Source: a virus. Taken from it: a stretch of 59,653 bases of DNA. Shown one piece after another: positions 16,832-51,802 of this stretch; position 1 is the stretch's first letter; each line of letters opens with the position of its first letter. The DNA lies in the IMG/VR virus record IMGVR_UViG_3300030685_000027, positions 1 through 59,653 of that record; one strand, written 5' to 3'. The position numbers and the translations under genes were made by a program. The notes under the pieces were generated by a model, which had not been told where the DNA came from, made no database searches, and saw nothing but the letters and a program-made list of their open reading frames with translations.

Positions 16832-17186
16832 TTTCTGTAAAATTCTTTAATGATTCATCATTCATTGTCTCAATAGGATATTTCATAATATATGCATCCA
16901 TTATGATCTGTCTTCTGCTTGCTGCCGCCATAGATTCATAATTGTCTACACGATAAGATTGTAACCAAGCATCTTGGGTTTCTCTAACTTCTCTTACTAT
17001 GTCGTAAAATTTTTCAAGTTCTTCATCATTATCGAATTCTAATGTAAATGAACCATCATCGATTATATTAATCTTCTTTACGATGCCATCCTTTGAATGT
17101 TCTTTTATAAACTTTTCATACTCTAAACGAGTAGTTTTTGCTATTTCGTTTAGAGCTGCAGTCTTTTCAGATATATACGCTTTCAT
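16815..17186 (-). CDS. Hypothetical protein, 123 aa
   Basis: Helical N-terminus (EKTAALNEIAKTTRLEYEKFIKE), a short beta hairpin (INIIDDGSFTLEFDND) and further helices. Its ATG overlaps the stop of the polymerase C-terminal half by one base (TAATG), so it is translated with it. A polymerase-related role is possible only by location. Confidence 0.6.
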   Translation of the reverse strand: MKAYISEKTAALNEIAKTTRLEYEKFIKEHSKDGIVKKINIIDDGSFTLEFDNDEELEKFYDIVREVRETQDAWLQSYRVDNYESMAAASRRQIIMDAYIMKYPIETMNDESLKNFTENEYKD

Positions 17187-26451: not shown

Positions 26452-26907
26452 TTATTTACTGTAAACAAGAAAGTGATCATTTAAATCAACTACTCCTTTT
26501 CTTTTTCGTAGTCCGTATTTTTTCACATCTCCAATAGCTTCTTCTATTTCCTTTGTGTCAATATATCTATCATTATTTAATGATGCTATTGCATAGAATA
26601 TATCGGCAGTTTTAGCCATGTCATCAGAATCGATTTCTAGAAATTCTTTTACCCATTCTGCATCATCTACTTCACGTATTTTTCCGTGTTCAAGAGTATA
26701 AATGCCTAATTCTTCTCCGTCATCGTCTTGTAATATAATCTGAAAATCAAAGTCTGGAAATTTCCCTTTCATAATTTCCAATGTACTGTCGACAAATTTA
26801 TAGTTCACGACATCAGAAACTGTAGCAGAGAATTTAGTTGTGATATATGACTTTGGTGCTTGAAAAGCTTCATTTATAAAAGCCTCGAAGAGCTTAACAT
26901 GTTTCAT
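26452..26907 (-). CDS. Putative internal capsid protein with capsid-targeting N-terminus
   Basis: The frame opens at 26925, but the ATG at 26907 gives MKHVKLFEAFINE followed by Ala. This has the same length and pattern as six other genes, M..[FY]xx[FY][ILV][NSA]E, the T4 type of capsid-targeting peptide cut by the prohead protease after the Glu. The mature domain (about 138 residues) is alpha/beta with an acidic centre (QDDDGEELGIYTLE). The upstream gene ends in an ATGA overlap with the longer start, so either start is possible. Function of the body unknown. Confidence 0.7.
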   Translation of the reverse strand: MKHVKLFEAFINEAFQAPKSYITTKFSATVSDVVNYKFVDSTLEIMKGKFPDFDFQIILQDDDGEELGIYTLEHGKIREVDDAEWVKEFLEIDSDDMAKTADIFYAIASLNNDRYIDTKEIEEAIGDVKKYGLRKRKGVVDLNDHFLVYSK

Positions 26908-26921
26908 AGTATTTCTTTTTT

Positions 26922-27761
26922 TCATAAATTAACGTCTAGCTCTCTAATTTGTTCACCTTTTTCTTTGATGACTTTACCAATGTTTGTTATATTGACAGTA
27001 TCATACCACAAAGGCGTTTTGGTCTTGCTATTCAATGATACGTACAGTCCATTTAAACCTACATATTGAACCAAAGATTTTCCATCGTATTGGATTCTAT
27101 TCGCAATAAGATTTCCGTCTTTATATGACAGTCTATAGAGATCATCATTAAGCTTGACCATGTTAGAATTTGTCTCTTTACGTTCAAGATTATTTACACC
27201 TTTGATATATGCAGCGTATAGATTTCGTTTACCGTTATCTAATTTATTGCCGTATATTAGTACTACACCTCCAGTTGTATAACTTACACTTTCTAATAAA
27301 TGATCGTAAGTATCTAACGCTCTGATAATCTTTTTATTTCCTTGATATTCACGTCTAATAGACTTTGAAATTTCAAGATTCATTTTCACGAGCAAATCTC
27401 CTGATTCCCATGATTGGTCAGTATCACCAATATCTTCTGGTTTAAAGTCACTTGCCCATGCCATAATAGCTTCATCATCTACATCTTCATACTCTTCTTC
27501 ATCATCTCTATCGCGTACAGCTTTTAGAGTATATTTATGAAGTTCTTCATCAGCTATATACGCAGCATAAAGTTGATGATCATCTAAATTTTTAAGGATA
27601 GCAAGAGACTTGTAATCACTTACTACAACTTTAAATTTTATACGATCAGCATTCTTTTTGTCCTCTATCCAATCTTCATCTCTTGAAAATTCAATTTCGG
27701 GTTCTAACCATGGCTCATCATGTTTTTCTGAGATGAAGTTATCGAATGTTTTAAGTTTCAT
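26922..27761 (-). CDS. Putative internal capsid protein with capsid-targeting N-terminus
   Basis: 279 residues starting MKLKTFDNFISE followed by Lys, matching the shared capsid-targeting pattern. The body is acidic first (DDEEEYEDVDDEAIMAW) and beta-rich later, with GGVVLIYGNKLDNGKRNLYAAYIKG. AAYI-type strands occur twice (LYAAYIADEE and LYAAYIKGVN), suggesting a repeated unit. No enzyme motif is seen. Co-transcribed with similar genes on both sides. Confidence 0.7.
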   Translation of the reverse strand: MKLKTFDNFISEKHDEPWLEPEIEFSRDEDWIEDKKNADRIKFKVVVSDYKSLAILKNLDDHQLYAAYIADEELHKYTLKAVRDRDDEEEYEDVDDEAIMAWASDFKPEDIGDTDQSWESGDLLVKMNLEISKSIRREYQGNKKIIRALDTYDHLLESVSYTTGGVVLIYGNKLDNGKRNLYAAYIKGVNNLERKETNSNMVKLNDDLYRLSYKDGNLIANRIQYDGKSLVQYVGLNGLYVSLNSKTKTPLWYDTVNITNIGKVIKEKGEQIRELDVNL

Positions 27762-28047
27762 TATAATGAAAAAATTTGTCGAATCTTATTAGTTGATAAT
27801 GCGAGCCATGTTCTGGATAGATGAATACTCCAGATTTATTGACCATAATAACATCGTAGAAATTAAATTCTATCTTTTCTGGTACCATATCTCTTATAGT
27901 ACGAACACATGAACATTTATGACCTAATACACCACAGTGATTACCATGAAGTATAGTTACTAGCTTAGTTTTCAGCTGTTCATCAGTTAATAGAAATAAA
28001 TCTTCAAATATGCTTTGTCCACACTCGGCATCTTTCAAATCTTCCAT
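27751..28047 (-). CDS. Hypothetical protein, 98 aa, Cys/His-rich
   Basis: Contains HGNHCGVLGHKCSCVRT, a possible zinc-binding knuckle, then IEFNFYDVIMVNKSGVFIYPEHG. It overlaps the downstream capsid-type gene by 11 bases. It does not carry the capsid-targeting N-terminus. Family unknown. Confidence 0.6.
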   Translation of the reverse strand: MEDLKDAECGQSIFEDLFLLTDEQLKTKLVTILHGNHCGVLGHKCSCVRTIRDMVPEKIEFNFYDVIMVNKSGVFIYPEHGSHYQLIRFDKFFHYNET

Positions 28048-28052
28048 AGTTG

Positions 28053-28295
28053 TTACGAATTGCGTATCATGTCAACGAATACTGTGTATCTATTTGTTTC
28101 TTCTCCTTCTTTACCGTCTGGTGATTTAAATGAATATTTGACTAATACATCTGGTGTAATTGCATTTGCATCAATGTAGATATCCTTAACAGATAATTTG
28201 CTGCCTTTTTTCGAAACATACATTTTGCCTGATTCTATTAATCCAAATCCCTCTGTTTCATAGAGCTTGCCTATGTTATTTGCGTAAGTTTTCAT
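28053..28295 (-). CDS. Hypothetical protein, 80 aa
   Basis: Begins MKTYANNIGKLYETEGFG, which partly resembles the capsid-targeting pattern (KLYETE) but lacks the [FY][ILV]xE end. The remainder is a small beta-rich domain (KMYVSKKGSKLSVKDIYID). It lies within the run of capsid-type genes. Function unknown. Confidence 0.6.
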   Translation of the reverse strand: MKTYANNIGKLYETEGFGLIESGKMYVSKKGSKLSVKDIYIDANAITPDVLVKYSFKSPDGKEGEETNRYTVFVDMIRNS

Positions 28296-28310
28296 TCGTA
28301 TTTTTATTTT

Positions 28311-29144
28311 TTATTCTTCGTCTTCGTCTTGAAGCATTTGAGCTGCCATAAAGATGTCTTTTAATAGATCGATGTCTTTTATGTCTCTTCTTTTTGCATA
28401 TTCTTCACATTCTTGGTATGAATCTGGTAATTCAGCACCATAGAAATCGAACATGTCTTGTGCCATATCGTCTATATCATCTTTTGATTCAAAAAGATTA
28501 TCTACGATAAAGTAATCTAAACTTTCATTTTGTTTAGAGCCTGATGCAAGTTCAGTATTTTTCTTTAACCAGTTAAGTGCTCTACCTGCACTATATTTTA
28601 GAATCTTTATGAATTTTTCTGCCATTTCATCGATAGTAAAATCAGTATCAGCTTTCAGTTTATAACCATAATCATTGTCATTAACTTTGATGAAATACTG
28701 ATCGTTTTTAACCCCGACTGGTACTACTTTAAATTCTTTTACAGATTCTGATTCATTAAGCAGTTTCAATATCTTTTCAAGCTCTATCTTTTTACCGAAT
28801 AGTCTTGAAATCTTACCTACTATTGCCCATTCACCTTCAATGTTTTCAATTTTATATGACTCGGTAAGTGAAGGAGAACTTTTAGCTTTCCATGCTGAAT
28901 CTAATTGTTTTTTAGCATCAGTTACTTTAGTGCTATCTACATTTAGTCTTTTAAACCATTTATCTTCACCGTACTTTTTATCTAAGAGAGCTGATACCTG
29001 ATCATCTGACATAGCAGATGTTATACCCAACTCAGCATCCTTTTTTATATCTATCCTGTACTGATCTCCAGTACTAGGAATGAGGATTACATTAACAAAT
29101 TCTGCTTCATTAATGTAATCCTCATATAACTTCACATATCCCAT
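28311..29144 (-). CDS. Putative internal capsid protein with capsid-targeting N-terminus
   Basis: 277 residues. MGYVKLYEDYINE followed by Ala fits the shared capsid-targeting pattern. The long acidic body contains a beta-rich centre (YFIKVNDNDYGYKLKADTD) and a C-terminal helix ending in DEDEE. A GATATATA late-promoter-like site lies 19 bases upstream of the start, so this gene probably heads the late operon running to 26452. Confidence 0.7.
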   Translation of the reverse strand: MGYVKLYEDYINEAEFVNVILIPSTGDQYRIDIKKDAELGITSAMSDDQVSALLDKKYGEDKWFKRLNVDSTKVTDAKKQLDSAWKAKSSPSLTESYKIENIEGEWAIVGKISRLFGKKIELEKILKLLNESESVKEFKVVPVGVKNDQYFIKVNDNDYGYKLKADTDFTIDEMAEKFIKILKYSAGRALNWLKKNTELASGSKQNESLDYFIVDNLFESKDDIDDMAQDMFDFYGAELPDSYQECEEYAKRRDIKDIDLLKDIFMAAQMLQDEDEE

Positions 29145-29163
29145 TGATATAATTTATTTTGAA

Positions 29164-29171
29164 TATATATC
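29164..29171 (-). promoter_or_regulatory. Late-promoter-like GATATATA site
   Basis: Minus-strand GATATATA ends 19 bases before the ATG of the capsid-type gene at 29144. One of eight such sites. Confidence 0.5.
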
Positions 29172-29189
29172 TTGCTGTGCAAATTGTTG

Positions 29190-29693
29190 CTAAAGAAGAA
29201 TAACTGTTGTATCTACTCCTTTTTCGACTAGTTCATCTTTTATAATTTGTTCGATGATATCCCAATTTCCACCTGCTAGGCCTGCTCCTATTTTTGGTAG
29301 TTGTACACTGTAATTTTCATACAATGCTTCTTGACAGATAGTTTGCATTCCTTTTCGAATTGCATCATATCTAATTGGAGCATTTCCAAATTCATCAAAG
29401 CCAATGCTTCTTTGACCCAGAATATTTACTATATACCCTTCATCGATTTTTACGAATTGAGCTTCTCCAAGTTTCCATTCTACAGGTAAATCTCTATCGT
29501 CTACATAAGATATTCCTAGAAAAGAGGTATTGTACCATCTTCTATATTCTTCTCTTGATTGTGGATATCTATTTGCAAGTGGAATAACGAAACCAGCTCC
29601 CCAACCTCCAATATCGTTGCAACAATGAGTAATAATTACTCTTTCAGAAAGAGGTAATGTTGCATCACCTGTAATGTATTTAAGTTGATTCAT
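29190..29693 (-). CDS. Macro-domain protein (ADP-ribose / ADP-ribosyl binding)
   Basis: 167 residues forming a single macro domain. ITGDATLPLSERVIITHCCND starts the fold, GGWGAGFVIPLANRYP is the substrate loop, and LPKIGAGLAGGNWDII is the glycine-rich phosphate loop. The layout resembles Poa1p/TARG1-type members, which hydrolyse ADP-ribose 1''-phosphate or remove ADP-ribose from proteins or DNA. In a phage it could reverse host ADP-ribosylation-based defence or recycle ADP-ribose made by NAD cleavage; this is inference. The TTTGTTAT motif lies 21 bases upstream. Confidence 0.85.
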   Translation of the reverse strand: MNQLKYITGDATLPLSERVIITHCCNDIGGWGAGFVIPLANRYPQSREEYRRWYNTSFLGISYVDDRDLPVEWKLGEAQFVKIDEGYIVNILGQRSIGFDEFGNAPIRYDAIRKGMQTICQEALYENYSVQLPKIGAGLAGGNWDIIEQIIKDELVEKGVDTTVILL

Positions 29694-29714
29694 ATAGAAT
29701 GTGTTTATTTTAAA

Positions 29715-29722
29715 ATAACAAA
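29715..29722 (-). promoter_or_regulatory. Early-type promoter motif TTTGTTAT before the macro-domain gene
   Basis: The octamer is 21 bases from the ATG, matching the spacing seen at 22858, 26329 and 44462. Confidence 0.4.
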
Positions 29723-29739
29723 TCTTTATTCTGAATAAA

Positions 29740-30003
29740 CTATTCTACCAATTTCTTTTTATACACATCAAATCTATCTATATGTCGTGGAAGCTCGCTA
29801 GTCAATAGTTTGAATAAACTGTATACTCCTGCTTCGTATGGTTCAAGATACGTTTTGCCTAAATTTTTGTAATAGACTTCCAAAAATTGTTTTGTACCGT
29901 AACATGGTATGGCACAGAGTGCTCTTGCTTCATCTTCCGATAAAGTAAGAGTCACTGTTAATTTCAATTCAGATGTTGATTTTATGCTTGAAGTTTCCAT
30001 CAT
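29740..30003 (-). CDS. Hypothetical protein, 87 aa
   Basis: Begins with a Ser/Thr-rich strand (KSTSELKLTVTLTL) then SEDEARALCAIPCYGTKQFLEVYYKNLG, a helix with two Cys. This style of LTLSEDEA-type protein recurs in phages without known function. It overlaps the polymerase N-half stop by four bases (ATGA) and lies downstream of it. Confidence 0.6.
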   Translation of the reverse strand: MMETSSIKSTSELKLTVTLTLSEDEARALCAIPCYGTKQFLEVYYKNLGKTYLEPYEAGVYSLFKLLTSELPRHIDRFDVYKKKLVE

Positions 30004-31382
30004 TTTTCCTTTAGTAATTGTTTTAGTTGATCAACTTCTTTTTCTATAGCAAATCCACATTTTTTAGCTTCTTTACGTAATCCATAAAAGTTAGCAAGCA
30101 TGGCTCTCATTAATGAATCTTTAGAATTATCGAATACTGCACCTGAAGCAGTTTTGATCCAATTTTTGTCTTCTGGAATATCTATTCCTTTTCCCATAAA
30201 TGATTCTGGAGATATATTCCATTGTCTCATAGTAGAAGGATATAGTGATGCAAAGTCAAAAGTAGCTAAATATTGAAATAGTCCTTTTTTAGGGTCTTTT
30301 ACATATGCACCTTCAAATGATTGATCTTTCGATCCTTTTTTCACTTCTGCTATAACTCTTTTTCGTTTGTAGAACTCTCTAATCATGATAGCTTCTGTCA
30401 TCCAAATCGGTGAGAATGCTTTTTGAGATTCTACTTGTGTAACATTTCCTAACATTAAGAAAGTTTGAAGAGTCTTAATTTTTCTGTCAATTTGATACAC
30501 CAAGTAAGTATCGACAGCATTGTAAAACATGTAAGTTTCTGGATCGTTATGATACAAATCCATAAGTGATCCGTTATATTGAATTTTCTGAATACCCAAT
30601 ACTGCTTTACCTACGGTGTCAAGTTTAAAGTTATCTTTAATCTTTACTACTCTATCCCATTTCTTATACAAGTCCAAATAATCGACAACGATTTTATGCT
30701 GTGGTAATTGATCGTCGCCTTTCATTGTTCTACTTGGTGAACATGTAGAAGGATCAATATTCAATCTTTTACATCTGTTAATCAAGAACTTCCAGTCAAA
30801 GTTTATAAAGTTCCATCCTGTAATAAGTGGGGCTTCTCTGAACCATTTACCGAATAATGTTATCAGTAATTCAGACTCTGATTTGAAATGAATATATTGA
30901 ATTGATGCATTTGGATCGTAATCTTTTAAATGTTCTCTATATCGTCTTTCGATATTCTGTTGTTGCTGAATAGTTAACTCTTTTGTTCCAAGTACAGTAG
31001 TGGCACCTCTTGAATTTACTAATGCTACTGCGGTAACTTTAGTAGCTGCTATAGCAGGATCGGGAAAATCATCTTCAACTTCAACCTCGATATCACAAAA
31101 CCATGATTCAGGAGCATTAAATTCGTATATTTCTTTCAGATATTCTGGACCTAAAGCAGTCATAAATTCTTCAATTCTGAATCTATTTAGCCAGTTAGCT
31201 CTAGTTTTCTTTACGGGCTTACCATCCCATGTATGATAGTAAGGATCTGCTCTTTCGGAACCTGCTAGTTCCCATTTGTACTTTTCAGTTCGTGGAATAG
31301 CAATATCTTTAAATGCTACTTTACCGTCTTTACCGAAATGTGATACTCTTAATGTATCATTTATTTGTTCTATATCGATCAT
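30000..31382 (-). CDS. 43: Family B DNA polymerase, N-terminal half (exonuclease and palm motif A)
   Basis: 460 residues equivalent to the first part of T4 gp43. The exonuclease motifs are FCDIEVE (D97, E99), WNFINFDWKF near 202 and YNAVDTYLVYQI near 288. The palm motif A DFASLYPSTMRQWN lies near 373-387. The chain ends soon after, in a helical segment KEVDQLKQLLKEK with no intein-like residues. Motifs B and C are on a separate gene at 17186-18367. The two must associate to form an active polymerase. Both ends are tightly packed (ATGA with the 87-residue gene), so a sequencing error is unlikely. Confidence 0.93.
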   Translation of the reverse strand: MIDIEQINDTLRVSHFGKDGKVAFKDIAIPRTEKYKWELAGSERADPYYHTWDGKPVKKTRANWLNRFRIEEFMTALGPEYLKEIYEFNAPESWFCDIEVEVEDDFPDPAIAATKVTAVALVNSRGATTVLGTKELTIQQQQNIERRYREHLKDYDPNASIQYIHFKSESELLITLFGKWFREAPLITGWNFINFDWKFLINRCKRLNIDPSTCSPSRTMKGDDQLPQHKIVVDYLDLYKKWDRVVKIKDNFKLDTVGKAVLGIQKIQYNGSLMDLYHNDPETYMFYNAVDTYLVYQIDRKIKTLQTFLMLGNVTQVESQKAFSPIWMTEAIMIREFYKRKRVIAEVKKGSKDQSFEGAYVKDPKKGLFQYLATFDFASLYPSTMRQWNISPESFMGKGIDIPEDKNWIKTASGAVFDNSKDSLMRAMLANFYGLRKEAKKCGFAIEKEVDQLKQLLKEK

Positions 31383-31390
31383 CTTAAAAA

Positions 31391-31834
31391 TTATTTAGTA
31401 CCTGTTGAACCGAAACCACCTGCTCCTCTTTCTGAAGATTGGCCTGCATATAATTCTGCGAGTGAAGTAGATTCTTCTATATCGTCATATGCAACATCTA
31501 ATAAAAGGAATTGTACAATTTTATCTCCAGGTTCTATTGTTATTGGCGAATCTGATAGATTTGTAAGATGTAAATGTACTTCACCTTCATAATCTTCATC
31601 TACTACACATGCACCTACTTGTAATTTCTTTTTAGTAGCAACACCAGATTTGTTGAATGCAACAAGTGCTTTACCAGTTGGAACATTTACATGTATTCCA
31701 CTTGGAATATTTATGTCTTTGTGTGGAAATACTACTACAGGGATGAAATCATTAGGCACAAAAAAATCTAATCCAGCGGATTGTTTAGTACCACGACGTG
31801 GTGTTTTTACGTCTTTTACTTTAAATATCTTCAT
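31391..31834 (-). CDS. dut: dUTPase (trimeric, dUTP diphosphatase)
   Basis: 147 residues with the five trimeric dUTPase motifs in order: AGLDFFVP, FNKSGVATKK, GACVVDEDYEGEV, EPGDKIVQFLLL and the C-terminal RGAGGFGSTG. It converts dUTP to dUMP and PPi, preventing uracil incorporation and supplying dTMP precursors. It lies eight bases upstream of the polymerase N-half. Confidence 0.95.
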   Translation of the reverse strand: MKIFKVKDVKTPRRGTKQSAGLDFFVPNDFIPVVVFPHKDINIPSGIHVNVPTGKALVAFNKSGVATKKKLQVGACVVDEDYEGEVHLHLTNLSDSPITIEPGDKIVQFLLLDVAYDDIEESTSLAELYAGQSSERGAGGFGSTGTK

Positions 31835-31890
31835 ATATTAATCATTTTGCCTTTTTAGTAATTTTATTCAATATGTTCTGAAAACACACA

Positions 31891-31917
31891 AAAGGGACAC
31901 TGGATTAGTGTCCCTTT
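31891..31917 (-). terminator. Hairpin terminator between capsid-type gene and dUTPase
   Basis: Perfect 11-bp inverted repeat (AAAGGGACACT) with a 5-base loop; minus strand continues TTTTGTGTGTTTT. It lies in the 134-base gap past the stop at 31969. Confidence 0.8.
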
Positions 31918-31968
31918 CTTGAAAAAGCCCTCTAAGTGTGCATCAAAATGAGAGGCATAGAAAGCGTT

Positions 31969-32454
31969 TTATGATTTTTTGAATACCAATTTAGCTTTTG
32001 TAGATAAACCTGTCAAAAGTTTTGCCAATTCTTTACCTGGCTCACCAAGTTCTCCATCTTCTAATTTAAGAAGAATTCCTTTTAGTATTAAGTAAGATAC
32101 TCCACCTATTACAGCACCTGCTGCGGTAGCGGTTAATGCAACCAGCGAATTTGTCAATAGACTAGTTAGAGCAGCTACATCTTCATTAGCTTCTACTTCT
32201 ACTTGTTCACCTTTACTTGCTAATTCTTTAATCCAAGAAGCAAATTTCTTACCTTTATCTCCAAGTTTTCCTGCTTCAAGTTGTTTGAATGCTTCATTAG
32301 CAGACTTTGCAGCAGCAATTGATATACCAGCAGCAGCTGTACCAGTAACAATACTCTTAATAATTGGAACAACTTTGTCAACTAACGCGCTTTCATTAAG
32401 TGCTTCGTTATTAAGATTTTCATTTACGAAATCATCGTATCTTTTAATTTTCAT
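31969..32454 (-). CDS. Putative internal capsid protein with two hydrophobic segments and an internal repeat
   Basis: 161 residues. MKIKRYDDFVNE fits the capsid-targeting pattern. Residues about 32-50 and 96-125 are hydrophobic, Ala/Gly-rich and long enough to cross a membrane. Each is followed by a similar charged block (QLEAGKLGDKGKKFASWI and KLEDGELGEPGKELAKLL), so the mature protein is a duplication. A capsid-packed membrane-active protein could help DNA entry or alter the host membrane; this is a prediction. It is followed by a terminator and preceded by the four-hairpin element. Confidence 0.7.
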   Translation of the reverse strand: MKIKRYDDFVNENLNNEALNESALVDKVVPIIKSIVTGTAAAGISIAAAKSANEAFKQLEAGKLGDKGKKFASWIKELASKGEQVEVEANEDVAALTSLLTNSLVALTATAAGAVIGGVSYLILKGILLKLEDGELGEPGKELAKLLTGLSTKAKLVFKKS

Positions 32455-32560
32455 TTTTTGTAACTTTTATTTTGTTATTTCAGAACTTTTGCCGACGATG
32501 AATACAATAATTATCGGATCATTTAGTGGTAAAGTATGCTATTTAAGACTTAGATAATAA

Positions 32561-32646
32561 ACCCAATCTCGTAAATTGGGTACGCATCTTAAGGCAATGC
32601 GATTGAGAGAACAAGTCTCATGCCACGTCCTTTACTCTTTGAGTAA
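32561..32646. ncRNA. Array of four tight hairpins in an intergenic gap
   Basis: In the 203-base gap between genes ending at 32658 and starting at 32454, four hairpins follow one another. They are 7 bp with a 7-base loop (32561-32581), 5 bp with a 9-base loop (32583-32601), 5 bp with a 7-base loop (32604-32620) and 6 bp with a 3-base loop (32632-32646). It has no T tract like a simple terminator. The order recalls tRNA arms, but no acceptor stem or T loop was found. It could be a structured RNA, leader or packaging/replication signal; the strand is uncertain. Confidence 0.5.
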
Positions 32647-32657
32647 TGACAATTAAA

Positions 32658-32894
32658 TCAGAGCTCTACGAATTCTATTGGAACTTTAATTTCCCAAGCA
32701 GTAGTTTCGTATGTCTTATATGTTTTACTCCAATCTTTCAGATTGATTACACGTTGTACTGCTACTACATAAAGCGGTGTTACGCTAAATGTAATTGTTC
32801 CACCTCTTACATTGACAACTTTTCTGTTTATCAAAGTCAAATCTTCTTCAAGAAATGGAAAATGTTCTTTTGTTATCGTTGCTCTCAGTTTCAT
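32658..32894 (-). CDS. Hypothetical protein, 78 aa
   Basis: All-beta-looking small protein (KLRATITKEHFPFLEEDLTL, then GGTITFSVTPLYVVAVQ). It overlaps the DUF3008-like gene by one base upstream and is followed by the four-hairpin gap. Family unknown. Confidence 0.6.
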   Translation of the reverse strand: MKLRATITKEHFPFLEEDLTLINRKVVNVRGGTITFSVTPLYVVAVQRVINLKDWSKTYKTYETTAWEIKVPIEFVEL

Positions 32895-33373
32895 TATGAT
32901 ATAGGTGCTATGCCTGATCCTTCTTTACTAGCTTTACCAGTTAAGTTTTGACCGTGGCCGTTTTGTGTGTTATTATCGTGAGTTTTGTAATTGATAAGTT
33001 TCAAGAATCCTTCAAAGTCATAAATTCTACGTTCATGTTTTGCTTTCTTCTCAAGTGGCAACTTAAATGTAGAAGGTGTGAATCTAGGATATTTCTTTTC
33101 AGCCTTTTCGATACCTGGAGTTCCTCCTTGATAATCGTCTGGAGTTAATCCTTCATTCATCGATTCCAGAAATTTTTCAGCGGCAAATTCAATAGCTTCT
33201 GTTACTTCTTCTGGTAGTCCTTCATGTTTTGTTCCAGCCATTCTTTCTAATTCTTCTTCTGACATTGAATCAGCTAAAGCTTTTATTCCTTTTGGACAAT
33301 CTTTGGATTCTCCTCTTTTACATGCTAGTGCCCATCCGAAAAGACGTTGTTGAGATTTTGATTTACTTGGCAT
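32894..33373 (-). CDS. Conserved phage protein with PSKSKSQQRLFGWALA N-terminus (DUF3008-like)
   Basis: 159 residues. The start MPSKSKSQQRLFGWALACKR with later LADSMSEEELERMAGTKHEGLPEEV is a signature I recognise from many phage proteins of unknown function. The C-terminal half has YPRFTPSTFKLPLEKK and an Asn/His/Gly-rich end. It lies among capsid-type genes. Confidence 0.75.
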   Translation of the reverse strand: MPSKSKSQQRLFGWALACKRGESKDCPKGIKALADSMSEEELERMAGTKHEGLPEEVTEAIEFAAEKFLESMNEGLTPDDYQGGTPGIEKAEKKYPRFTPSTFKLPLEKKAKHERRIYDFEGFLKLINYKTHDNNTQNGHGQNLTGKASKEGSGIAPIS

Positions 33374-33409
33374 CTTAGTTAATATTTTTATTTGTATGGT
33401 ATCTCTCCA

Positions 33410-33946
33410 CTATAATTGTCGAATTATGAGTTCTTCATCTGCTATAACATCAAATTCTGGTCGAAGTATAGTGAGTAACATTCCGAGAATATTCTTCTTT
33501 AAATCTGGAAGTAAAGTCGTCTCATCAAATTTCATACCGGCAGACTTAAGTGCAACTCTAGTAATTTTCAAATCTTCTAGTGAAACAGCAAAGTCTGTAC
33601 TTTCTTTATCATAATCATTAGGGTTATTATTATCAAACTCAGGTTGTCCCTTATATTTAACAATAAAATGCACTTCTAATTCATATTCTTGGTTATCGAT
33701 TGCTACTTGTATGTAATAAGTACATTTCGATTCTTTTTCTTCTTCTTGAGTTTGCAAATTCAGGAAAACTGGCCATGAACGTTTTTCCTGCATAAAGACT
33801 ATATTGTCCTGTTCTCTATCAGGCATTACAAACTTTGAATAGTTTCTGTTGATTTCACTAGCTACCATTGATACAGTAGATGAATCACTCATGATATTCT
33901 TTTCTGCTTCTGCTAAATAATCTTTATACGATAAAATTTTTCTCAC
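33410..33946 (-). CDS. Putative internal capsid protein with capsid-targeting N-terminus
   Basis: 178 residues, GTG start at 33946. MRKILSYKDYLAE followed by Ala is the closest of the set to the T4 internal-protein N-terminus. The mature part is a beta-rich, acidic protein (CTYYIQVAIDNQEYELEVHF). A GATATATA site lies 21 bases before the GTG. Function of the body unknown. Confidence 0.7.
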   Translation of the reverse strand: MRKILSYKDYLAEAEKNIMSDSSTVSMVASEINRNYSKFVMPDREQDNIVFMQEKRSWPVFLNLQTQEEEKESKCTYYIQVAIDNQEYELEVHFIVKYKGQPEFDNNNPNDYDKESTDFAVSLEDLKITRVALKSAGMKFDETTLLPDLKKNILGMLLTILRPEFDVIADEELIIRQL

Positions 33947-33967
33947 AATTATCTTTTAATTTCAAAC

Positions 33968-33976
33968 TATATATCA
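33968..33976 (-). promoter_or_regulatory. Late-promoter-like TGATATATA site
   Basis: Minus-strand TGATATATA ends 21 bases before the GTG start of the capsid-type gene at 33946. Confidence 0.5.
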
Positions 33977-33983
33977 ACATGCA

Positions 33984-34412
33984 CTAAAATGTTGCTGAAT
34001 GTAATACTTCTTGCATCATACTATCTTGTGCATTATATCCTTTTCTTGCAATAGTGAATTTCTGTAAAGCAGGTGTGACAATTGTTATTCTATCTGCTCT
34101 GAATAATCTCCATCCTGGTACTAATCTAGGGTTTATTTTCCCAGATCTACTGTATCCTCTGATCAGCCATGCTCTTACGAGTGTATTCCCATGTTTATCT
34201 ACGCCTATAGCATAAGGTTCTATAACTCTTATACCGGGAAGTATCTTAGAATTCGGTTCACCTCTATAATCAATTGTACATACAAATTTATTCGTTACTG
34301 CATCATTCAATTTTGTCATGTTTGATCCATAGTCTTCATTTATTTGCATATCGTAAGAATTTGAATTTACGAACTCATTTATAAATTCATCATAGTCTGC
34401 TACATGTTTCAT
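33984..34412 (-). CDS. WYL-like domain protein with capsid-targeting N-terminus
   Basis: 142 residues. MKHVADYDEFINE followed by Phe matches the capsid-targeting pattern, and a second possible cut site follows at MQINE. Residues about 40-125 read like a WYL domain: VCTIDYRG, IRVIEPYAIGVDKHGNTLVRAWLI, then GWRLFRADRITIV. WYL domains sense ligands or nucleic acids in transcription and defence regulators. A capsid-delivered WYL domain would be notable. It overlaps the ligase-like gene upstream by four bases. Confidence 0.7.
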   Translation of the reverse strand: MKHVADYDEFINEFVNSNSYDMQINEDYGSNMTKLNDAVTNKFVCTIDYRGEPNSKILPGIRVIEPYAIGVDKHGNTLVRAWLIRGYSRSGKINPRLVPGWRLFRADRITIVTPALQKFTIARKGYNAQDSMMQEVLHSATF

Positions 34413-36265
34413 ATATTCTGATCTTTTAAATCTTTACGTAATTTATAGTAGTAGTTATGTACTATAGGCGGACAAATTGACTTAAATGCATGATAGTCAT
34501 CTCCTCTTAATGCTTTAAGTGGTATTTCTGTACCAAAATAATCTTGTGCATCTACGTATTCAGGTTTCATTCCTGTTTGCATTACAAAGTCATTATAGTA
34601 GTTTTCTTCTCCGCAAAAGTGTGTAGGTAAACATTCTCTAGTCTTTAATGCCGAATCGATTTCTGAATAGTCAGGTCTTGTACATAAGATTAATCCTTCT
34701 AAATAGTCTTTGTTATTATTTAAGAAATCTGAAGATAGACTCTTATAAGTATCTAATGTTGTGAAAGGGTTACCTATCATTACAAGAAATGTCTTCTGAT
34801 TAGTACGTTCTTTCATATCTCTTAATGCAGTTACTATCCCATTATGATAAGGTGCAGTTTTCGAAACCATAACCGATACTGATTTTCCACCATTTGGTAA
34901 TGAAGGAGAACTTAAATTTTTCAGTAGTGTAATAAAAGATACCTCTTTCTCGACAGTTTTTTCTGCTGGAGTTTCTGCTACTGGAATATTTTCAAGAGGT
35001 TGAGTGCCTTGGAATCCATCTTCGTGAATACGTATCCCATATTCTTCCCATCTGTCACTTTCACTTGACATGAAAATATCTCTGAAATCATTAAAAGCTA
35101 AAAGACTTTCAGATATTCCAATGTTGATATAATCAGCTATTTTATCAACTAACTTATTATGATACCAAATAAGCTCTTGTTTAAAGAATCCGAATGGTTT
35201 CTTTTTATGTGTTCGCATAGAAGCTAGCATTATCTTAAATAAATCTCTATTCAAAGAGCTTTTTCTAAGTAACTCTACAGCTTCATTGTTTTTTACAAAA
35301 TTGAAGTTTACACCAGCTTCTGCTCTAGTAAGGAATGCTGGCATTTCAAAATCTATTTCTCCACTAAAATTATTCTTGTAATAAGAAGATTTGCAAAATG
35401 ATACAAATGCACGAGAAATGAATTCGATATATCTATCTTCAAATGTCTTCTGCTTTAAGTCTATTTTACTGAAATTTAAAGTCTGGAAAAATTCTTGGAA
35501 CATTACAAGCGTTAAACTGTAAATATCAGAAGGTTTATCGTCTTTCTTATCTACCTTCTCATTTTGATACACTGGATTCATAATCTTCAAAGGATTTTCT
35601 CCATCAAATTTGAATACTAATGCTTCAATGTCTCTATCAAGGGTGTTTTGCATGAATGATTTTCCCATGCCTGGAACTAATACATTCAAGAAATATGCAG
35701 CGAAGTTTTCAATTTTAAATTTTTTCAGAATCTCATCTTGTGGAGTATTCAGATAGTCTAAAATTTTATCTAATTGTTCTTTGTTCAACTTTCCTTTGAA
35801 TAAAATAGGAGAAGGTTCAACTTCTAAATAATCAGCCCATTTATTCAACGTTTCTTTATCGGAAATTATATCGATTACTTTACCATTCGGATCTCTTACT
35901 GTGATATCTGTCAGAACTAAATTATTCTTTGGCATCCTTTCGTATGCTGTTCTGACAGGATTTAAGTTTGGGAAATATTCAAATCCAAATCTCCAACCAG
36001 ACGGAATGCCGGCTAATTTCTCATCAGTAAAAGATGAGAAATGAGAGATTGCTTTCTCATAATATCTTGCAAGTGTTCTATCTATTTTCGTAATAGGAGC
36101 AGAATCATTTCTTTTGAAAAATTTGAATTCATCGGCATCATTCAACTCTGCAGAAAAGCGTGAACCGTCAAGCTGTTCTTCACATGTTAAGTCTTTATCT
36201 AATAATTTTTCTACATATTTAGGATCTTTTTTATAAAGATCGTATAAATGATTTATACCTGCCAT
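34409..36265 (-). CDS. Ligase-like / nucleotidylyltransferase fusion with substituted nucleotidyl lysine
   Basis: 618 residues. The N-terminal domain follows the ATP-dependent nucleic-acid ligase order. Motif I is EEQLDGSRF with Gln at residue 31 where Lys is normally adenylated; motif III is FGFEYF (93-98), motif IV EALVFKF near 214-220 and motif V PLKIM with Lys near 227. The C-terminal 150 residues (from about 455) contain VMVSKTAPYHNGIVTAL and VMIGNP, like an HxGH-type nucleotidylyltransferase (NMNAT/cytidylyltransferase fold). It is related in plan to the 504-residue gene at 41526. The ligase half may be a binding or receiver domain. It starts 20 bases after a late-promoter-like site. 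Confidence 0.75.
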   Translation of the reverse strand: MAGINHLYDLYKKDPKYVEKLLDKDLTCEEQLDGSRFSAELNDADEFKFFKRNDSAPITKIDRTLARYYEKAISHFSSFTDEKLAGIPSGWRFGFEYFPNLNPVRTAYERMPKNNLVLTDITVRDPNGKVIDIISDKETLNKWADYLEVEPSPILFKGKLNKEQLDKILDYLNTPQDEILKKFKIENFAAYFLNVLVPGMGKSFMQNTLDRDIEALVFKFDGENPLKIMNPVYQNEKVDKKDDKPSDIYSLTLVMFQEFFQTLNFSKIDLKQKTFEDRYIEFISRAFVSFCKSSYYKNNFSGEIDFEMPAFLTRAEAGVNFNFVKNNEAVELLRKSSLNRDLFKIMLASMRTHKKKPFGFFKQELIWYHNKLVDKIADYINIGISESLLAFNDFRDIFMSSESDRWEEYGIRIHEDGFQGTQPLENIPVAETPAEKTVEKEVSFITLLKNLSSPSLPNGGKSVSVMVSKTAPYHNGIVTALRDMKERTNQKTFLVMIGNPFTTLDTYKSLSSDFLNNNKDYLEGLILCTRPDYSEIDSALKTRECLPTHFCGEENYYNDFVMQTGMKPEYVDAQDYFGTEIPLKALRGDDYHAFKSICPPIVHNYYYKLRKDLKDQNI

Positions 36266-36285: not shown

Positions 36286-36296
36286 TTTATATATCA
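36286..36296 (-). promoter_or_regulatory. Late-promoter-like TGATATATAAA site
   Basis: Minus-strand TGATATATAAA begins on the TGA stop of the paralogous gene at 36294 and ends 20 bases before the ATG of the ligase-like fusion gene. Confidence 0.5.
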
Positions 36297-36794
36297 AAAT
36301 CCGTACTTCTTTCCCATAATCATGCCTCTAAATGCATGTCCACCTCTTATTAGCCATTCATTAAAGCTTATGTCTTTTCCTATCCCTGAATGAATCCATT
36401 TTCTAAATTCTAGATTTTGAATAATATCAGTGAATGGTTTAACGAGTTTTATTATATCTTTTTCTGCAGCTGATCCATAAAATGGATGTGGATCAGGTAT
36501 AACTTTACCATCCTTTAATATCGATAATACCCTTTCTGAATTAGAAATCGTCTTACCGTTTTCATCATATTGATATACTTCTACTTGTACAATAGTATGA
36601 TCTGTATAGATATATGCTCCATTAAATTTAACTTTGAATTTATGTTTATCATCTAATTCTTGTTCTAAAATAATAGCACTATCTTTTGGTACAACATTAG
36701 TAAAATTGGACTCTACATAAGAAAACTTAAATTTATCTTCAAGTATAATTTTTTTATACGGTTTTAGCTTATTGTCAGCTTCTGGTTTATTCAT
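36294..36794 (-). CDS. RG-KKYG family protein (tandem copy A)
   Basis: 166 residues, ending FRGMIMGKKYGF. It is clearly a duplicate of the next gene upstream: both share ILEQ, KFKVKF-like strands, IKLVKPFTDIIQNLEFRKWI and the terminal signature. The body looks like one alpha/beta domain with a W-containing C-terminal helix. The stop directly carries the late-promoter-like site. Function unknown; see the family at 2869, 49860 and 51834. Confidence 0.75.
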   Translation of the reverse strand: MNKPEADNKLKPYKKIILEDKFKFSYVESNFTNVVPKDSAIILEQELDDKHKFKVKFNGAYIYTDHTIVQVEVYQYDENGKTISNSERVLSILKDGKVIPDPHPFYGSAAEKDIIKLVKPFTDIIQNLEFRKWIHSGIGKDISFNEWLIRGGHAFRGMIMGKKYGF

Positions 36795-36796
36795 AT

Positions 36797-37273
36797 TTAA
36801 AATCCATATTTCTTTCCCATAATCCTACCTCTAAATGTATGACTACCTTTCTTTACCCAATCAGTAAAACTTACTTCTTTAGCTATACCAGATTGAATCC
36901 ACTTTCTAACTTCTAGATTTTGTATAGCATCAGTAAATGGCTTAACTAATCTTATCATATCATTTGATGTCTCAAATTTGCATGATGGATCAGATGTGAC
37001 TTTGCCGTCTGCTGATATGATCAGATCTCTGTCAGAGTTGGGATATATCTGGCCTCCTTCATTATAATGAACCAAGTAAAGTTCTACAACTGTGTGACCA
37101 TCTATGTATATTTTAGCTGCAGAAAATTTAACTCTAAATTTACGTCTATTATGATCTAACGCTTGTTCTAAAATAGTAGCAACTTCTCTAGGCACTGCAT
37201 TAATAGTACTTGCTTCTATACAGAGAAATTTAGTATTGTCATTAAGTATAAGCGGTTTACCTTCTAAAAACAT
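36797..37273 (-). CDS. RG-KKYG family protein (tandem copy B)
   Basis: 158 residues, ending FRGRIMGKKYGF. It shares with copy A the order ILEQALD, FRVKFSAAKIYID, MIRLVKPFTDAIQNLEVRKWI and SFTDWV. Two bases separate the pair. A GATATATA site ends nine bases before the ATG. The lack of an N-terminal targeting peptide sets this family apart from the capsid-type genes. No known domain recognised. Confidence 0.75.
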   Translation of the reverse strand: MFLEGKPLILNDNTKFLCIEASTINAVPREVATILEQALDHNRRKFRVKFSAAKIYIDGHTVVELYLVHYNEGGQIYPNSDRDLIISADGKVTSDPSCKFETSNDMIRLVKPFTDAIQNLEVRKWIQSGIAKEVSFTDWVKKGSHTFRGRIMGKKYGF

Positions 37274-39332: not shown

Positions 39333-40214
39333 TTAGATATTATCTAGTTCAATAAGAATACTATCTTCTGTTATTTCAGAAGCTTCTTTACCTATCGTTT
39401 TTATGATTGTATCTAAAGTAAGATCACAATAGTCATCTATCCAATCATCTATGAAATAGAGGTTTCTAGAGTTTTTTATTACACCGAACAGAATAGGATC
39501 TTTTTTCTTTTCTTTTTCTGCATTAGTATCAGCACTTGCCGATCCGAGAGGATCGTAATGTAATATGACATAGTTGTCGAAGACATTTAATGTATCAGCG
39601 GCCTTCTTCTTTTTTGAAACAGACTCAGGAATAACTTTTACGAAATTCTTGATATACGTTAGACATAATCCAGTTCTATATTTATCGTGAACAGAAGCTT
39701 TACTATGAAAAGCTACAATATCTGCTTCTGTTAAATATTTCTTACCATATTTTGCTACACTTAATGTCAATTCATATTTTAGAGTTTCCGCAAATGCTTC
39801 AATCTTTTCTACTAGTGCCACTTGATTATTATCTTTCGCATTCTGTAGTACAGTATCATATTTATTCAGAACTTCCTCAATAGTGGATTTTTCAAGCTCA
39901 CGTACATTATTCTTGATCGAATCGAAGAATGACTTGATATGGTTAAACTTCGATATTTTATGCAGTTTAGCATCAAAATTATGTCCATACATTTTTCTGT
40001 AGAGCCATATCTTAAACTTCAGATATACCGTAGGAGCATTGGCATAGAGATACTTGAGATACTCCAAATGTGAATCTTCAGTTAATCTATTTACATTTGA
40101 AGATATAACTCCCCAAGTATTTACTGATGTAGGATTTTCTCGATCTTTATACTTCGGTAAATTGAAATCGACTTCTATGTTATTTAGAAGTGTTATACGA
40201 TTATTTGCTATCAT
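39333..40214 (-). CDS. Hypothetical protein, 293 aa, probably structural
   Basis: Helical first half (KFNHIKSFFDSIKNNVRELE), then NYVILHYDP, DPILFGVIKNSRNLYFIDDWIDDYC as a possible beta-hairpin. YVILHYDP with DPILFG resembles phage proteins of unknown role. It overlaps the 260-residue gene upstream by 14 bases. Function unknown. Confidence 0.65.
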   Translation of the reverse strand: MIANNRITLLNNIEVDFNLPKYKDRENPTSVNTWGVISSNVNRLTEDSHLEYLKYLYANAPTVYLKFKIWLYRKMYGHNFDAKLHKISKFNHIKSFFDSIKNNVRELEKSTIEEVLNKYDTVLQNAKDNNQVALVEKIEAFAETLKYELTLSVAKYGKKYLTEADIVAFHSKASVHDKYRTGLCLTYIKNFVKVIPESVSKKKKAADTLNVFDNYVILHYDPLGSASADTNAEKEKKKDPILFGVIKNSRNLYFIDDWIDDYCDLTLDTIIKTIGKEASEITEDSILIELDNI

Positions 40215-41288: not shown

Positions 41289-41596
41289 ATTATCGGTATT
41301 TTTGTATATTGTGTTTTTATATTCTTGAAAATGAAAAAATTCGGATATCTATCCATTAATTGCCAGAATGCTTCTATTGTATCTTTACTTTCATAAAAAT
41401 TGTCTAGAAAAACTATTTCATCAGGATTGCGTCTTCCTCGTAAATTTCCCATACACGTTATGTAATAAATTGCATCATCTGTATATTCTAACGTGGTCAT
41501 ATACCGATAAAAATCAGAGACATTTTTAGCTAATACAAATATTGTTTTCTGTGTACAAGGATTGCAAGCTTTCATAGAATATCCATGTTTGTTCAT
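41285..41596 (-). CDS. Hypothetical protein, 103 aa
   Basis: Contains KTIFVLAKNVSDFYRYMTTLEY then AIYYITCMGNLRG, an alpha/beta protein. It overlaps the ligase-like fusion by 71 bases from the ATG at 41596; the ATG at 41575 or a later start would reduce this. The start is therefore uncertain. Family unknown. Confidence 0.6.
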   Translation of the reverse strand: MNKHGYSMKACNPCTQKTIFVLAKNVSDFYRYMTTLEYTDDAIYYITCMGNLRGRRNPDEIVFLDNFYESKDTIEAFWQLMDRYPNFFIFKNIKTQYTKIPII

Positions 41597-44440: not shown

Positions 44441-44461
44441 TTCTATTTCATTTTTGATAAA

Positions 44462-44469: not shown

Positions 44470-44488
44470 AAAATGATCAAAAGATAAA

Positions 44489-45328
44489 TTATCTATCTCT
44501 TAATTTTTTCAATGCTGACGGAAAACTATCTAACGGTATAGATACAAATTCTTTTGAAATTTCTTGTTTGTCACTATCCAGAATAGTTAAGCTAAGTCCT
44601 TTTACACCACGTATATTTTCTTCTGAGTTTAAATCACTAGGAGATGTGGTAGCTCTGATATAGTACGTATCTTTATTGAAAGACCAATACGCAAATTCAG
44701 ATGGAGAATCAATAGTTTGTCCTTTTATATCGAAAGGACCTTTGGCATCAGACAAATACTTTTTAATCAAATCGTCATACGTCTTAATAATCTGACTGTA
44801 ATCCATACTATCATAGAAAGTATCTGATTTTCCGGTTCTTGTGTAATAGAATAATGACTCTAATACGATCGCATACATTTTCGATATATCGTATAGATAT
44901 TTCATGATGGTAGCACGTAGAGACTTATCTAATGTAGCAAAGTTATTCTTCAAGAAATCATGTTCAGACAACTTAAGTTGATTCTGTTGATCTTCAGTTA
45001 AAGTAGTACTAAGTTCACTTATGTTATTCAACGATAATTCTAGTGGAAATAAATTGCCGAATTTGTATGGCAGTTTCTCTGCTCTCTTTATGAGATTGTA
45101 AATAGCTAGAGGACTTTTTGAATTAATAGCATTATTTAAGTCATGATAAAGATTAACGTAAGTGTCCATGTCATCTGGAATGGGAACTACTGAAAATTGA
45201 CGATCTACATTATCTATATTGACAATAAACTTACCTTCACCCATGTCATTAACTGTATATTCTTCGAATTGATCACTCAATGGCATTTTATCTTCATTGA
45301 GGAACTCATTAAATTTCAGTAATTTCAT
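44489..45328 (-). CDS. Putative internal capsid protein with capsid-targeting N-terminus
   Basis: The frame opens at 45352, but its first codons are the promoter-like site, so the ATG at 45328 (MKLLKFNEFLNED) is chosen, giving 279 residues. It fits the capsid-targeting pattern, with Glu before Asp as cleavage site. The body is helical, rich in acidic residues, and contains DSMDYSQIIKTYDDLIKKY. A GATATATA site lies 14 bases upstream. Function unknown. Confidence 0.7.
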   Translation of the reverse strand: MKLLKFNEFLNEDKMPLSDQFEEYTVNDMGEGKFIVNIDNVDRQFSVVPIPDDMDTYVNLYHDLNNAINSKSPLAIYNLIKRAEKLPYKFGNLFPLELSLNNISELSTTLTEDQQNQLKLSEHDFLKNNFATLDKSLRATIMKYLYDISKMYAIVLESLFYYTRTGKSDTFYDSMDYSQIIKTYDDLIKKYLSDAKGPFDIKGQTIDSPSEFAYWSFNKDTYYIRATTSPSDLNSEENIRGVKGLSLTILDSDKQEISKEFVSIPLDSFPSALKKLRDR

Positions 45329-45342
45329 ATTAGATTTTTTCT

Positions 45343-45351
45343 TATATATCA
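45343..45351 (-). promoter_or_regulatory. Late-promoter-like TGATATATA site
   Basis: Minus-strand TGATATATA ends 14 bases before the chosen ATG at 45328, immediately after the UvsW stop. Confidence 0.5.
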
Positions 45352-46872
45352 TTACAATGAAACATTATGCATTGAAATCTCTTCAGTATACTGCTTATAG
45401 AATTCTAGTCTTGCTTTACCATGCTTGAGTAGATAATTGTCACTCTGTTTATCAGATTTTGTTTGCCAAGATAAATCATCAACTATATCGACAATATTTA
45501 CCTTTTCTTTTCCATCTAATAATCTCATTCCTCTACCGATAGACTGTTTAATGATTATTTCTGATCTGTATGATTCAATGAATACGATATTATGAATGTT
45601 CTTTATCGATATACCAGTGGAGAATGTAGTAAATGAAGCAATAAGAATTTTATTGTCTCCATTCTCCATATCTTTCTTGTAATATTCTCTGTGGTCTTTA
45701 CTTACACCGCCATCTACATAATAACAAACTTTTTCAGTTTCTTCTCTTAATGCATCATAGATAGATCTGCCATAGTTATCTTTTATATTAGAGAACATGA
45801 CTAACGTATTCTTAGAAGTTTTAGCTAATAAGTCTATGATAAATCTTGTACGTCCTTTATGTTGTACAACTATCTTCTTTTCTAATGCTAATAACTGACT
45901 ACCGTCTAATTGAGCCTTCGATTTTCTTAACTCGTAAAGTTTTTCCCGTATTTCAGTGTTCTTATAGTTAAGTTTTATGATTTTTACTTTTACAGGAGTA
46001 GCATATCCCTCATCGAATAGGAATTTTGGTGAAATAGTATTGACCAAAGGACCTAAATATGCAGTTATCGTATAATAGTCAGCAGAATTATCTACACATA
46101 ATGTACCAGTAAGACCAAATCTAACTCTGGAGTCTTTACATTTGTCCAATACATTTTTAACTGATACAGTTTTTCCTTGGTGAGCTTCATCAACACATAC
46201 TACGTCAATTCCTTTGTAGTAATCGATGGTTTTTCTAGACAAAGATTGGAAGGTACCAACTATTATATCAGCGCTTGGATCATTATCTTTAGCTCCACCG
46301 TATACCATCCTAATTTGCATATCGATTTTGCCATTATTATACTCGTCAAAGTCATCATTTAATTGCATTACAAGCGTAACATTAGGTACAATAATGAGCA
46401 TTTTATTTAGCTGACCGATACTTTTCAAATAACCGTAGACTAAGAAAGTGATAAGTGTCTTTCCAGATGATGTTGCAATTTCAGAAGAAGTGATTCTGTG
46501 CTTCATGATTGCAATAGCCGCATCTAATTGATAGTCTCTAGGCTGATATTTATTGCCTTCGAAATGTTTTGTTGACCAATCTTTGAAGCGTTGAGCATCA
46601 AATTCTGAATCAACTATTTTATCTAAACCGTATATTTCAACAGGATAACCAAACTGCTCACCGATAATGAATAGTTCATTCCACAACCCAATCTGAATAT
46701 ATCCATCCTTTATGAAAGAGATAGATCCATCCCACAACTTTTTCTTCACTAGCGGGTTATAGAAATGTCCTCTGATCTTTTTCTTTAAACTGTGATGCAA
46801 TTGCTCAAGTTCTAAATCAGTAGCTTCTATTAATCTTAAAAATTTACAGTTTTCGGTTACATTAAATTTCAT
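45352..46872 (-). CDS. uvsW: UvsW-like DNA/RNA helicase
   Basis: 506 residues (T4 UvsW is 503). Motif I ATSSGKT, motif II VDEAHQG, the SF2 helicase order and motif VI QSIGRGMRLLDG are present, and an N-terminal substrate-binding domain precedes them. In T4, UvsW processes branched DNA and removes R-loops, switching replication from origin- to recombination-dependent. It lies next to UvsY, as in T4. Confidence 0.93.
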   Translation of the reverse strand: MKFNVTENCKFLRLIEATDLELEQLHHSLKKKIRGHFYNPLVKKKLWDGSISFIKDGYIQIGLWNELFIIGEQFGYPVEIYGLDKIVDSEFDAQRFKDWSTKHFEGNKYQPRDYQLDAAIAIMKHRITSSEIATSSGKTLITFLVYGYLKSIGQLNKMLIIVPNVTLVMQLNDDFDEYNNGKIDMQIRMVYGGAKDNDPSADIIVGTFQSLSRKTIDYYKGIDVVCVDEAHQGKTVSVKNVLDKCKDSRVRFGLTGTLCVDNSADYYTITAYLGPLVNTISPKFLFDEGYATPVKVKIIKLNYKNTEIREKLYELRKSKAQLDGSQLLALEKKIVVQHKGRTRFIIDLLAKTSKNTLVMFSNIKDNYGRSIYDALREETEKVCYYVDGGVSKDHREYYKKDMENGDNKILIASFTTFSTGISIKNIHNIVFIESYRSEIIIKQSIGRGMRLLDGKEKVNIVDIVDDLSWQTKSDKQSDNYLLKHGKARLEFYKQYTEEISMHNVSL

Positions 46873-50846: not shown

Positions 50847-51467
50847 TTAAATGCTAGTAAATTTTTCGTATGTACATTTCTGTATATAATATGAGTCGAC
50901 AATGTCATCGACAGGTTTTTTAGTTCTATCAATCTCTCCTGAATGTAATCCTTTCCAAAAGAAAGTATGCGTAACATTATTATCTTCCGTTAAATTCATG
51001 AAAAATTCCATGATAAGCTCTTTATTCGCATTTCCTTTACCTGCCATTTTCTTTACATTTCCTGGCGAAAATACACAAAATTTATCTTTACCGTACTTTT
51101 TTACTATTGCGGTACGTACTGCATATCCGTATCCTACAATGTCTATGAATGAGTTTCCACTTGAACCGTATGAGAATCCTTCTATTCCTACTCCATCAGC
51201 TTCATCTGGTAAATGAGAAATTATCCATTCTGCATATTCCATAGCATCATTAGCTTTCCAAACTTCAGATTCTGAATATTCCATTTTAGCTGGTTGTACA
51301 CTAGGGTAAAAATAAATTTCTACCCCTCTATCTTTCATAGTTGTATAGTGAGTAGCTATTTTCCCTTTGTCTTGACCACGTATAAAAGAGAGAAATCTGT
51401 ATCCATCAGAAGTCTGTATACAAACACCAGGTGAATTTTTTGACATATCTATTCCGATGTATGTCAT
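50847..51467 (-). CDS. RuvC-like Holliday-junction nuclease
   Basis: 206 residues. The N-terminal YIGIDMSKNSPGVCI carries the first Asp of an RNase-H-like fold, GVGIEGFSYG the second acidic site, and KPVDDIVDSYYI the last Asp pair. That arrangement matches RuvC-type resolvases, which cut four-way junctions before packaging. T4 uses the unrelated gp49. It overlaps the downstream start of the 112-residue gene by four bases. Confidence 0.8.
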   Translation of the reverse strand: MTYIGIDMSKNSPGVCIQTSDGYRFLSFIRGQDKGKIATHYTTMKDRGVEIYFYPSVQPAKMEYSESEVWKANDAMEYAEWIISHLPDEADGVGIEGFSYGSSGNSFIDIVGYGYAVRTAIVKKYGKDKFCVFSPGNVKKMAGKGNANKELIMEFFMNLTEDNNVTHTFFWKGLHSGEIDRTKKPVDDIVDSYYIQKCTYEKFTSI

Positions 51468-51802
51468 TTAGAGCCAATATGTTTTGCTATAGCTGATCCT
51501 AGTGCTGTACTCACAAGTCTAGATGTAAGCATATCGTATATGATACCTTTATCTACTCCTAGAGCTGAAGCTATAACTTTACCTATAGCTGGTCCTACTA
51601 TAAATCCTGTTACTCCACCAAAGATTCTGCCTAATATTCCTTCATCCAATTCAGATATTTTCTTATCTCCAAACTCTTTTAGAACTTCTGACAGTTCTTG
51701 TTTTTCAGATTCGTTAAGAAATTGAAATTCATCTTCGTTGATAACGATATATTCATTGAGAGTTTTTTCTTCTCTCATTTCATTAAACGTTTTCATTTGC
51801 AT
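51464..51802 (-). CDS. Small protein with hydrophobic segments, possibly capsid-targeted
   Basis: 112 residues from ATG at 51802 (or 51796, MKTFNEM). The N-terminus MKTFNEMREEKTLNEYIVINE loosely resembles the capsid-targeting pattern with a longer pro-region. Then come an acidic helix and Gly/Ala-rich hydrophobic stretches (IFGGVTGFIVGPAIGKVIASAL and STALGSAIAKHIG), enough for membrane insertion. A GATATATA site is 16 bases upstream. Function unknown. Confidence 0.6.
   Translation of the reverse strand: MQMKTFNEMREEKTLNEYIVINEDEFQFLNESEKQELSEVLKEFGDKKISELDEGILGRIFGGVTGFIVGPAIGKVIASALGVDKGIIYDMLTSRLVSTALGSAIAKHIGSK

Follow-up and report, generated by a model that had tools for sequence, protein, structure and literature searches.

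Putative internal head proteins with N-terminal tags

The closest described counterparts of the system considered here are the internal proteins (IPs) of phage T4, IPI, IPII and IPIII, in which a short N-terminal tag (MKTYQEFIAEA) precedes unrelated protein bodies. Suppressor substitutions in IPIII show that capsid targeting depends on residues 4 (Tyr) and 7 (Phe) of the tag and processing on residues 8 (Ile) and 10 (Glu), and the T4 prohead protease itself requires only L/I-x-E (PMC9026906). The cargo delivered in this way includes IPI, which counters GmrSD restriction, and IPIII, which is required on strain ECOR17 (PMC9391042). We describe here a stretch of viral DNA of 59,653 nucleotides (IMG/VR record IMGVR_UViG_3300030685_000027; "the window" below). 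This 59.7-kb fragment comes from an uncultured virus whose replication genes are of the T4 type, and seven of its genes open with a tag of this kind. The shared N-terminus is probably a propeptide for capsid targeting, as in the T4 internal proteins (about 0.8 by our estimate), through which many unrelated proteins would enter the prohead, packaging and cleavage being inferred by analogy.

The head ejection proteins of phages phiKZ and SPN3US provide a second comparison, since they too are cargo of the inner head, and a relative of T4 gp21 processes them after x-x-E (PMC5694885). Their propeptides are mostly longer than 100 residues and have A/S-x-E sites, whereas the tags in the window are 12-13 residues long and end in [ILV]xE. 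An equivalent of the T4 scaffold protein gp22 is not confirmed in those phages.

Seven tagged genes in the window

All seven genes lie on the minus strand, and their tags have the form M(4-5)[FY]xx[FY][ILV]xE, in which the Glu is the last residue (position 12 or 13) in every translation. The four conserved positions are precisely those identified in IPIII, with identical spacing, and so support an earlier note on this DNA that had read these starts as T4-type capsid-targeting N-termini. The same note had listed the seven genes, each of which exists where it was placed, although one of them (44489) falls outside the interval 26452-34412 to which the group had been assigned. Its motif was too short at the front: four or five residues, not two, separate Met from the first aromatic residue. 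One of the genes has a GTG start, and the tags of genes 26452 and 44489 require an internal ATG (Met7 and Met9, respectively).

The number of such starts is well above chance. When the 81 open reading frames (ORFs) of the window were scanned for [FY]xx[FY][ILVMF]xE near the N-terminus, seven matched, each with the first aromatic at residue 6-7, compared with 0.33 expected from the remainder of the proteins. A looser test found eight matches, a number reached in none of 1000 trials with shuffled N-termini (mean 0.60, maximum 5); the eighth, at window position 16815, has its motif near residue 22 and was set aside as a chance match. Position is equally constrained among the relatives, where 3154 unique ORFs from their loci have the motif 7, 15, 12, 53 and 12 times at zero-based offsets 3 to 7, and about once at each other offset. 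Applied to T4 as a control, the pattern returned ipII and ipIII and nothing else. In the shuffle test with the same pattern, neither T4 nor the 300-kb contig G014 exceeded the shuffled counts, and the strict tag was absent from the first 100 kb of phage RaK2 and from the head region of the Flavobacterium phage MaF61. Among the matches elsewhere, two topoisomerase segments (YALYVIESRGIP and YAQYVVEHRAIP), the repetitive ORFs 9299, 15563 and 18068 of contig G012, and ORF 83296 of contig G004 were rejected as false positives.

The tagged genes are predicted to encode cargo proteins, and, as the earlier note had proposed, their bodies are unrelated: no pair of the seven matches at E<=1. Gene 26452..26925 (157 residues; tag MKHVKLFEAFINE at 26869..26907, start at Met7 preferred) has a body without a family match. 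It is followed by 26922..27761 (279 residues; tag MKLKTFDNFISE, 27726..27761), for which only a 100% identical copy was found elsewhere, and by 28311..29144 (277 residues; tag MGYVKLYEDYINE, 29106..29144), whose homologues in relatives are mostly tagged as well (e.g. MKHVKLFEDFLNE). The product of 31969..32454 (161 residues; tag MKIKRYDDFVNE, 32419..32454) contains hydrophobic Gly/Ala-rich segments, and its family matches are limited to weak SseC-like and hemolysin-like ones. Gene 33410..33946 (178 residues; GTG start, tag VRKILSYKDYLAE at 33908..33946) has homologues in loci L002, L003 and L004 that are also tagged. The body of 33984..34412 (142 residues; tag MKHVADYDEFINE, 34374..34412) has a WYL-like domain slightly below the Pfam cut-off, and that of 44489..45352 (287 residues; tag MKLLKFNEFLNE at 45293..45328, start at Met9 preferred) has no assigned function. 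Searches for close relatives with 26922, 28311 and 44489 recovered near-identical contigs only.

An eighth member is likely to be the gene at 51464..51802 (minus strand, 112 residues), which begins with the degenerate tag MKTFNEMREE (51767..51796) and has a hydrophobic, Gly-rich C-terminal half; its homologues carry the full tags MRTFSEYINES and MQTFNEFIGEK. Amid the tagged genes lies 32894..33373 (minus strand), which encodes a DUF3008 protein without an N-terminal tag. Its homologue adjoins the capsid gene in contigs G005 and G012, and in G008 a DUF3008 domain forms part of a tagged protein.

The tag in related huge phages

The DNA polymerase of the window is nearest to those of published huge phages, namely LR756500 (38% identity), LR756504 and the Lak phages of Prevotella. 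Judged from sequence, the tag is general in this lineage. G004, a near-identical 140-kb contig that overlaps the window and covers two thirds of it, adds two strict tags: an AAA+ ATPase bears MRFKKFDDFVNEN, and a protein of 126 residues bears MKLKSFSEYIKED. The 462-kb genome of LR756500 encodes about 20 tagged proteins (22-23 pattern matches, including one topoisomerase false positive, vs 3.7 in shuffled sequences), compared with three in T4. Altogether, when 70 tagged proteins from nine contigs were clustered by their bodies, 53 clusters resulted, with the overlapping copies from the window and G004 grouped together. Unlike the T4 set, those of the lineage include enzymes, and the recognizable bodies comprise DUF2201/VWA proteins, AAA+ ATPases, a PNK-type 3'-phosphatase, a RimK-like ATP-grasp protein, a cupin, leucine-rich repeats, DUF5661 and DUF3008.

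In these comparisons, the tag acts as a module distinct from the body. The body of 28311, a family for which AlphaFold gives a mean predicted local distance difference test score (pLDDT) of 50, keeps its tag in most homologues. The homologue in L014 had been a candidate for an untagged version; the alignment shows an internal start, MKHLKLFEQFINEAKKF, and the protein is therefore tagged. The WYL-like body of 33984 also occurs in another phage lineage (loci L218-L254 and the contig G014), with contigs of 300 kb and an unfused S77 protease, where a different, equally conserved N-terminus, MKLYNTFKSLILEVAS, precedes it, and the homologue in MaF61 has no tag. A few more G014 ORFs have similar starts (MKLIGTIKSILVEE, MKLINTIIRIVNEE), and the MKLYNTFKSLILEVAS-type start is perhaps a targeting sequence specific to that lineage.

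A recurrent arrangement among the relatives is a MoxR-like AAA+ ATPase gene adjoining one for a DUF2201/VWA protein (G004 43609-46814, LR756500 200318-203494 and G012 175592-179408), with a strict or variant N-terminal tag on one or both partners. In G004, the VWA-domain neighbor of the tagged ATPase has the variant start LLFEDFNRFS...AVLE; the LR756500 ATPase and the G012 VWA partner were assigned from position and N-terminus only. It is possible that the AAA+/VWA pair is packaged and injected.

Protease, scaffold and capsid protein of the relatives

Like T4, the lineage has a gp21-type protease and a gp23-type capsid protein. The proteases were found in the relatives with PF03420 (the T4 gp21 family, S77), independently of the tag motif, and sit within ORFs of about 600-800 residues. 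The N-terminal part matches the T4 prohead protease structure 5jbl (E=3.2e-5). The part that follows, a putative scaffold, carries tandem copies of the tag core, YxxY[LIV]AE, at an exact spacing of 14 residues: 363 such intervals were counted across 65 distinct ORFs, with up to 15 copies per ORF and 11-13 in LR756504, LR756501 and LR745206. The low-confidence structural model of the scaffold weakly matches a designed coiled coil in the PDB (E=0.007). This fusion of protease and tag-core repeats is unlike T4, whose gp22, when scanned with a similar, slightly looser pattern, has no repeats of the tag core. The 1404-residue protein annotated as a putative prohead scaffold in MaF61 is alike in being large, in its protease-like N-terminal sequence and in its place in the head region, but lacks 14-residue repeats. 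A search confined to a library of open-access papers turned up no account of these scaffold repeats, nor of a set of proteins that share a tag in huge phages.

The gp23-type capsid gene lies downstream of the protease-scaffold gene. Its product has an N-terminal arm of about 45 residues that contains, in most of 61 compared sequences, [LIM]NE at about residue 7 and [LM]xE at about residue 43, as would be expected for sites of the prohead protease.

Proposed targeting and cleavage, and alternative explanations

According to the propeptide model, cargo would dock into the helical scaffold core through the two aromatic residues of the tag, with the tag probably mimicking one 14-residue scaffold unit, and the shell would close around the docked cargo. 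The gp21-type protease would then cleave after [LIVM]xE in the scaffold, in the capsid arm and in the tags (with MKHVADYDEFINEFVNS as an example of a tag peptide, the predicted cut following the Glu), and the freed cargo would remain in the head and enter the host along with the DNA. Docking, packaging, cleavage and injection are all proposed from the T4 precedent. In a more specific form of the model, to which we give somewhat less than even odds, the tag mimics a single scaffold unit, such that any protein with one N-terminal unit would co-assemble and be freed by the protease that dismantles the scaffold; a virion might then contain dozens of proteins, including AAA+/VWA pairs, ATP-grasp proteins and nucleotide-processing enzymes.

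The motif could alternatively be a prohead-protease cleavage site and nothing else, so that the proteins would be processed components of the head or core with targeting information elsewhere in each of them. The minimal L/I-x-E requirement of the T4 enzyme and the presence of [LIM]xE in the capsid arm would both fit, and yet the aromatic pair, which is dispensable for cleavage in T4, is conserved too. In variant tags such as MAKHVKTFSSFIRMNENE and MSKIRSIFNYSDFLKNRSVLES it is this pair, [FY]xx[FY], that is kept while [LIV]xE is displaced downstream, which is consistent with separable targeting and cutting. The tagged bodies, moreover, resemble enzymes and regulators rather than parts of a shell, and we consider a pure cleavage site unlikely.

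The genomic setting of the tagged genes bears on another explanation, that the N-termini form a docking helix for some other phage complex (e.g. one for replication or a membrane assembly) without being packaged or cut. The cluster in the window does lie amid replication genes (DNA polymerase, dUTPase) and not head genes. However, T4 IP genes are likewise located away from the head genes, contigs G009 and G011 have a tagged gene within the head module, between the genes for the protease-scaffold and the major capsid protein, and the tag core recurs in the scaffold, which leaves such a docking helix quite improbable. Recent duplication of one gene start, with no present function, might account for several near-identical starts in LR756500 (MKYILEYEEFLLE) and for its cluster of five related leucine-rich bodies, but it is barely credible for tags that vary at most non-core positions while retaining the core, that keep this core in homologues across divergent phages, and that are spread over so many body clusters.

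Several observations weigh against the propeptide model. No enrichment of a T4-type late promoter (TATAAATA) was found 5' of the tagged genes, the sequence sought being the T4 consensus, which may not be that of this phage; such a promoter belongs to T4 late genes as an accessory trait and is no property of the tag itself. The scaffold units of LR756500 are worn and have often lost the Glu, and cleavage at every repeat is therefore not universal. AlphaFold models the repeats of the protease-scaffold as long helices with low confidence (pLDDT 58). The tags match the repeats at the four core positions and, when the other positions were compared, showed only modest likeness; an origin of the tags as copies of scaffold units was rejected on this ground, and what is claimed is a shared core, not copying. 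In G004, the searches found neither an S77 protease nor a complete capsid gene, and the sole gp23 match from the window and this contig is weak and covers 49 residues. The head genes of the phage itself are not in the recovered contigs, so that agreement between its tag and its own protease is drawn from the relatives, whose head genes those of the window phage presumably resemble. We also know of no virion proteomics for this lineage.

To our knowledge, it is not clear how the ten-residue T4 tag is recognized by the prohead core. A scaffold in which the tag core is repeated in tandem provides a direct and testable hypothesis for such recognition, with the tag acting as one of the repeat units. 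In addition, in uncultured huge phages, where most genes lack annotation, the tag nominates candidate injected proteins from sequence alone, and the candidate tagged enzymes may act at the earliest moments of infection.

C-terminal tails and neighboring genes

Many proteins of the window and G004, with bodies mostly unlike one another, end in a common tail of approximately [KR]RGxx[LI][GS]KK[FY]GF-COOH. The ORFs with this tail in the window are 2869-3402, 36294-36794, 36797-37273, 49860-50369 and 51834-52298 (all on the minus strand); in G004, about 20 ORFs have it, FGF-like ends occur on 23 of 232 ORFs vs 1.4 expected, and the tail is nearly absent from most of the compared genomes. An ORF of the relative L004 (7540-8058) has the N-terminal tag together with a GRKYGL end. 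LR756500 (W01) has another C-terminal tail, NADDFGF(F/L)DN, on about 15 proteins (e.g. 13446-14282, 198758-199531 and 322613-322996); the N-terminal tag is present on eight of them as well. An FGF core is common to the C-terminal tails of both lineages, that of G004 and the window and that of LR756500.

The family-B DNA polymerase of the window is encoded by two genes about 12 kb apart (17186-18367 and 30000-31382, minus strand), and the LR756500 polymerase is split in the same way. Three further minus-strand genes of the window may be mentioned: 34409-36265 encodes a large protein with no family match, 39333-40214 a transposase-like protein (phrog_10081, E=1.5e-13), and 41526-43040 a large protein with a C-terminal cytidylyltransferase-like domain.

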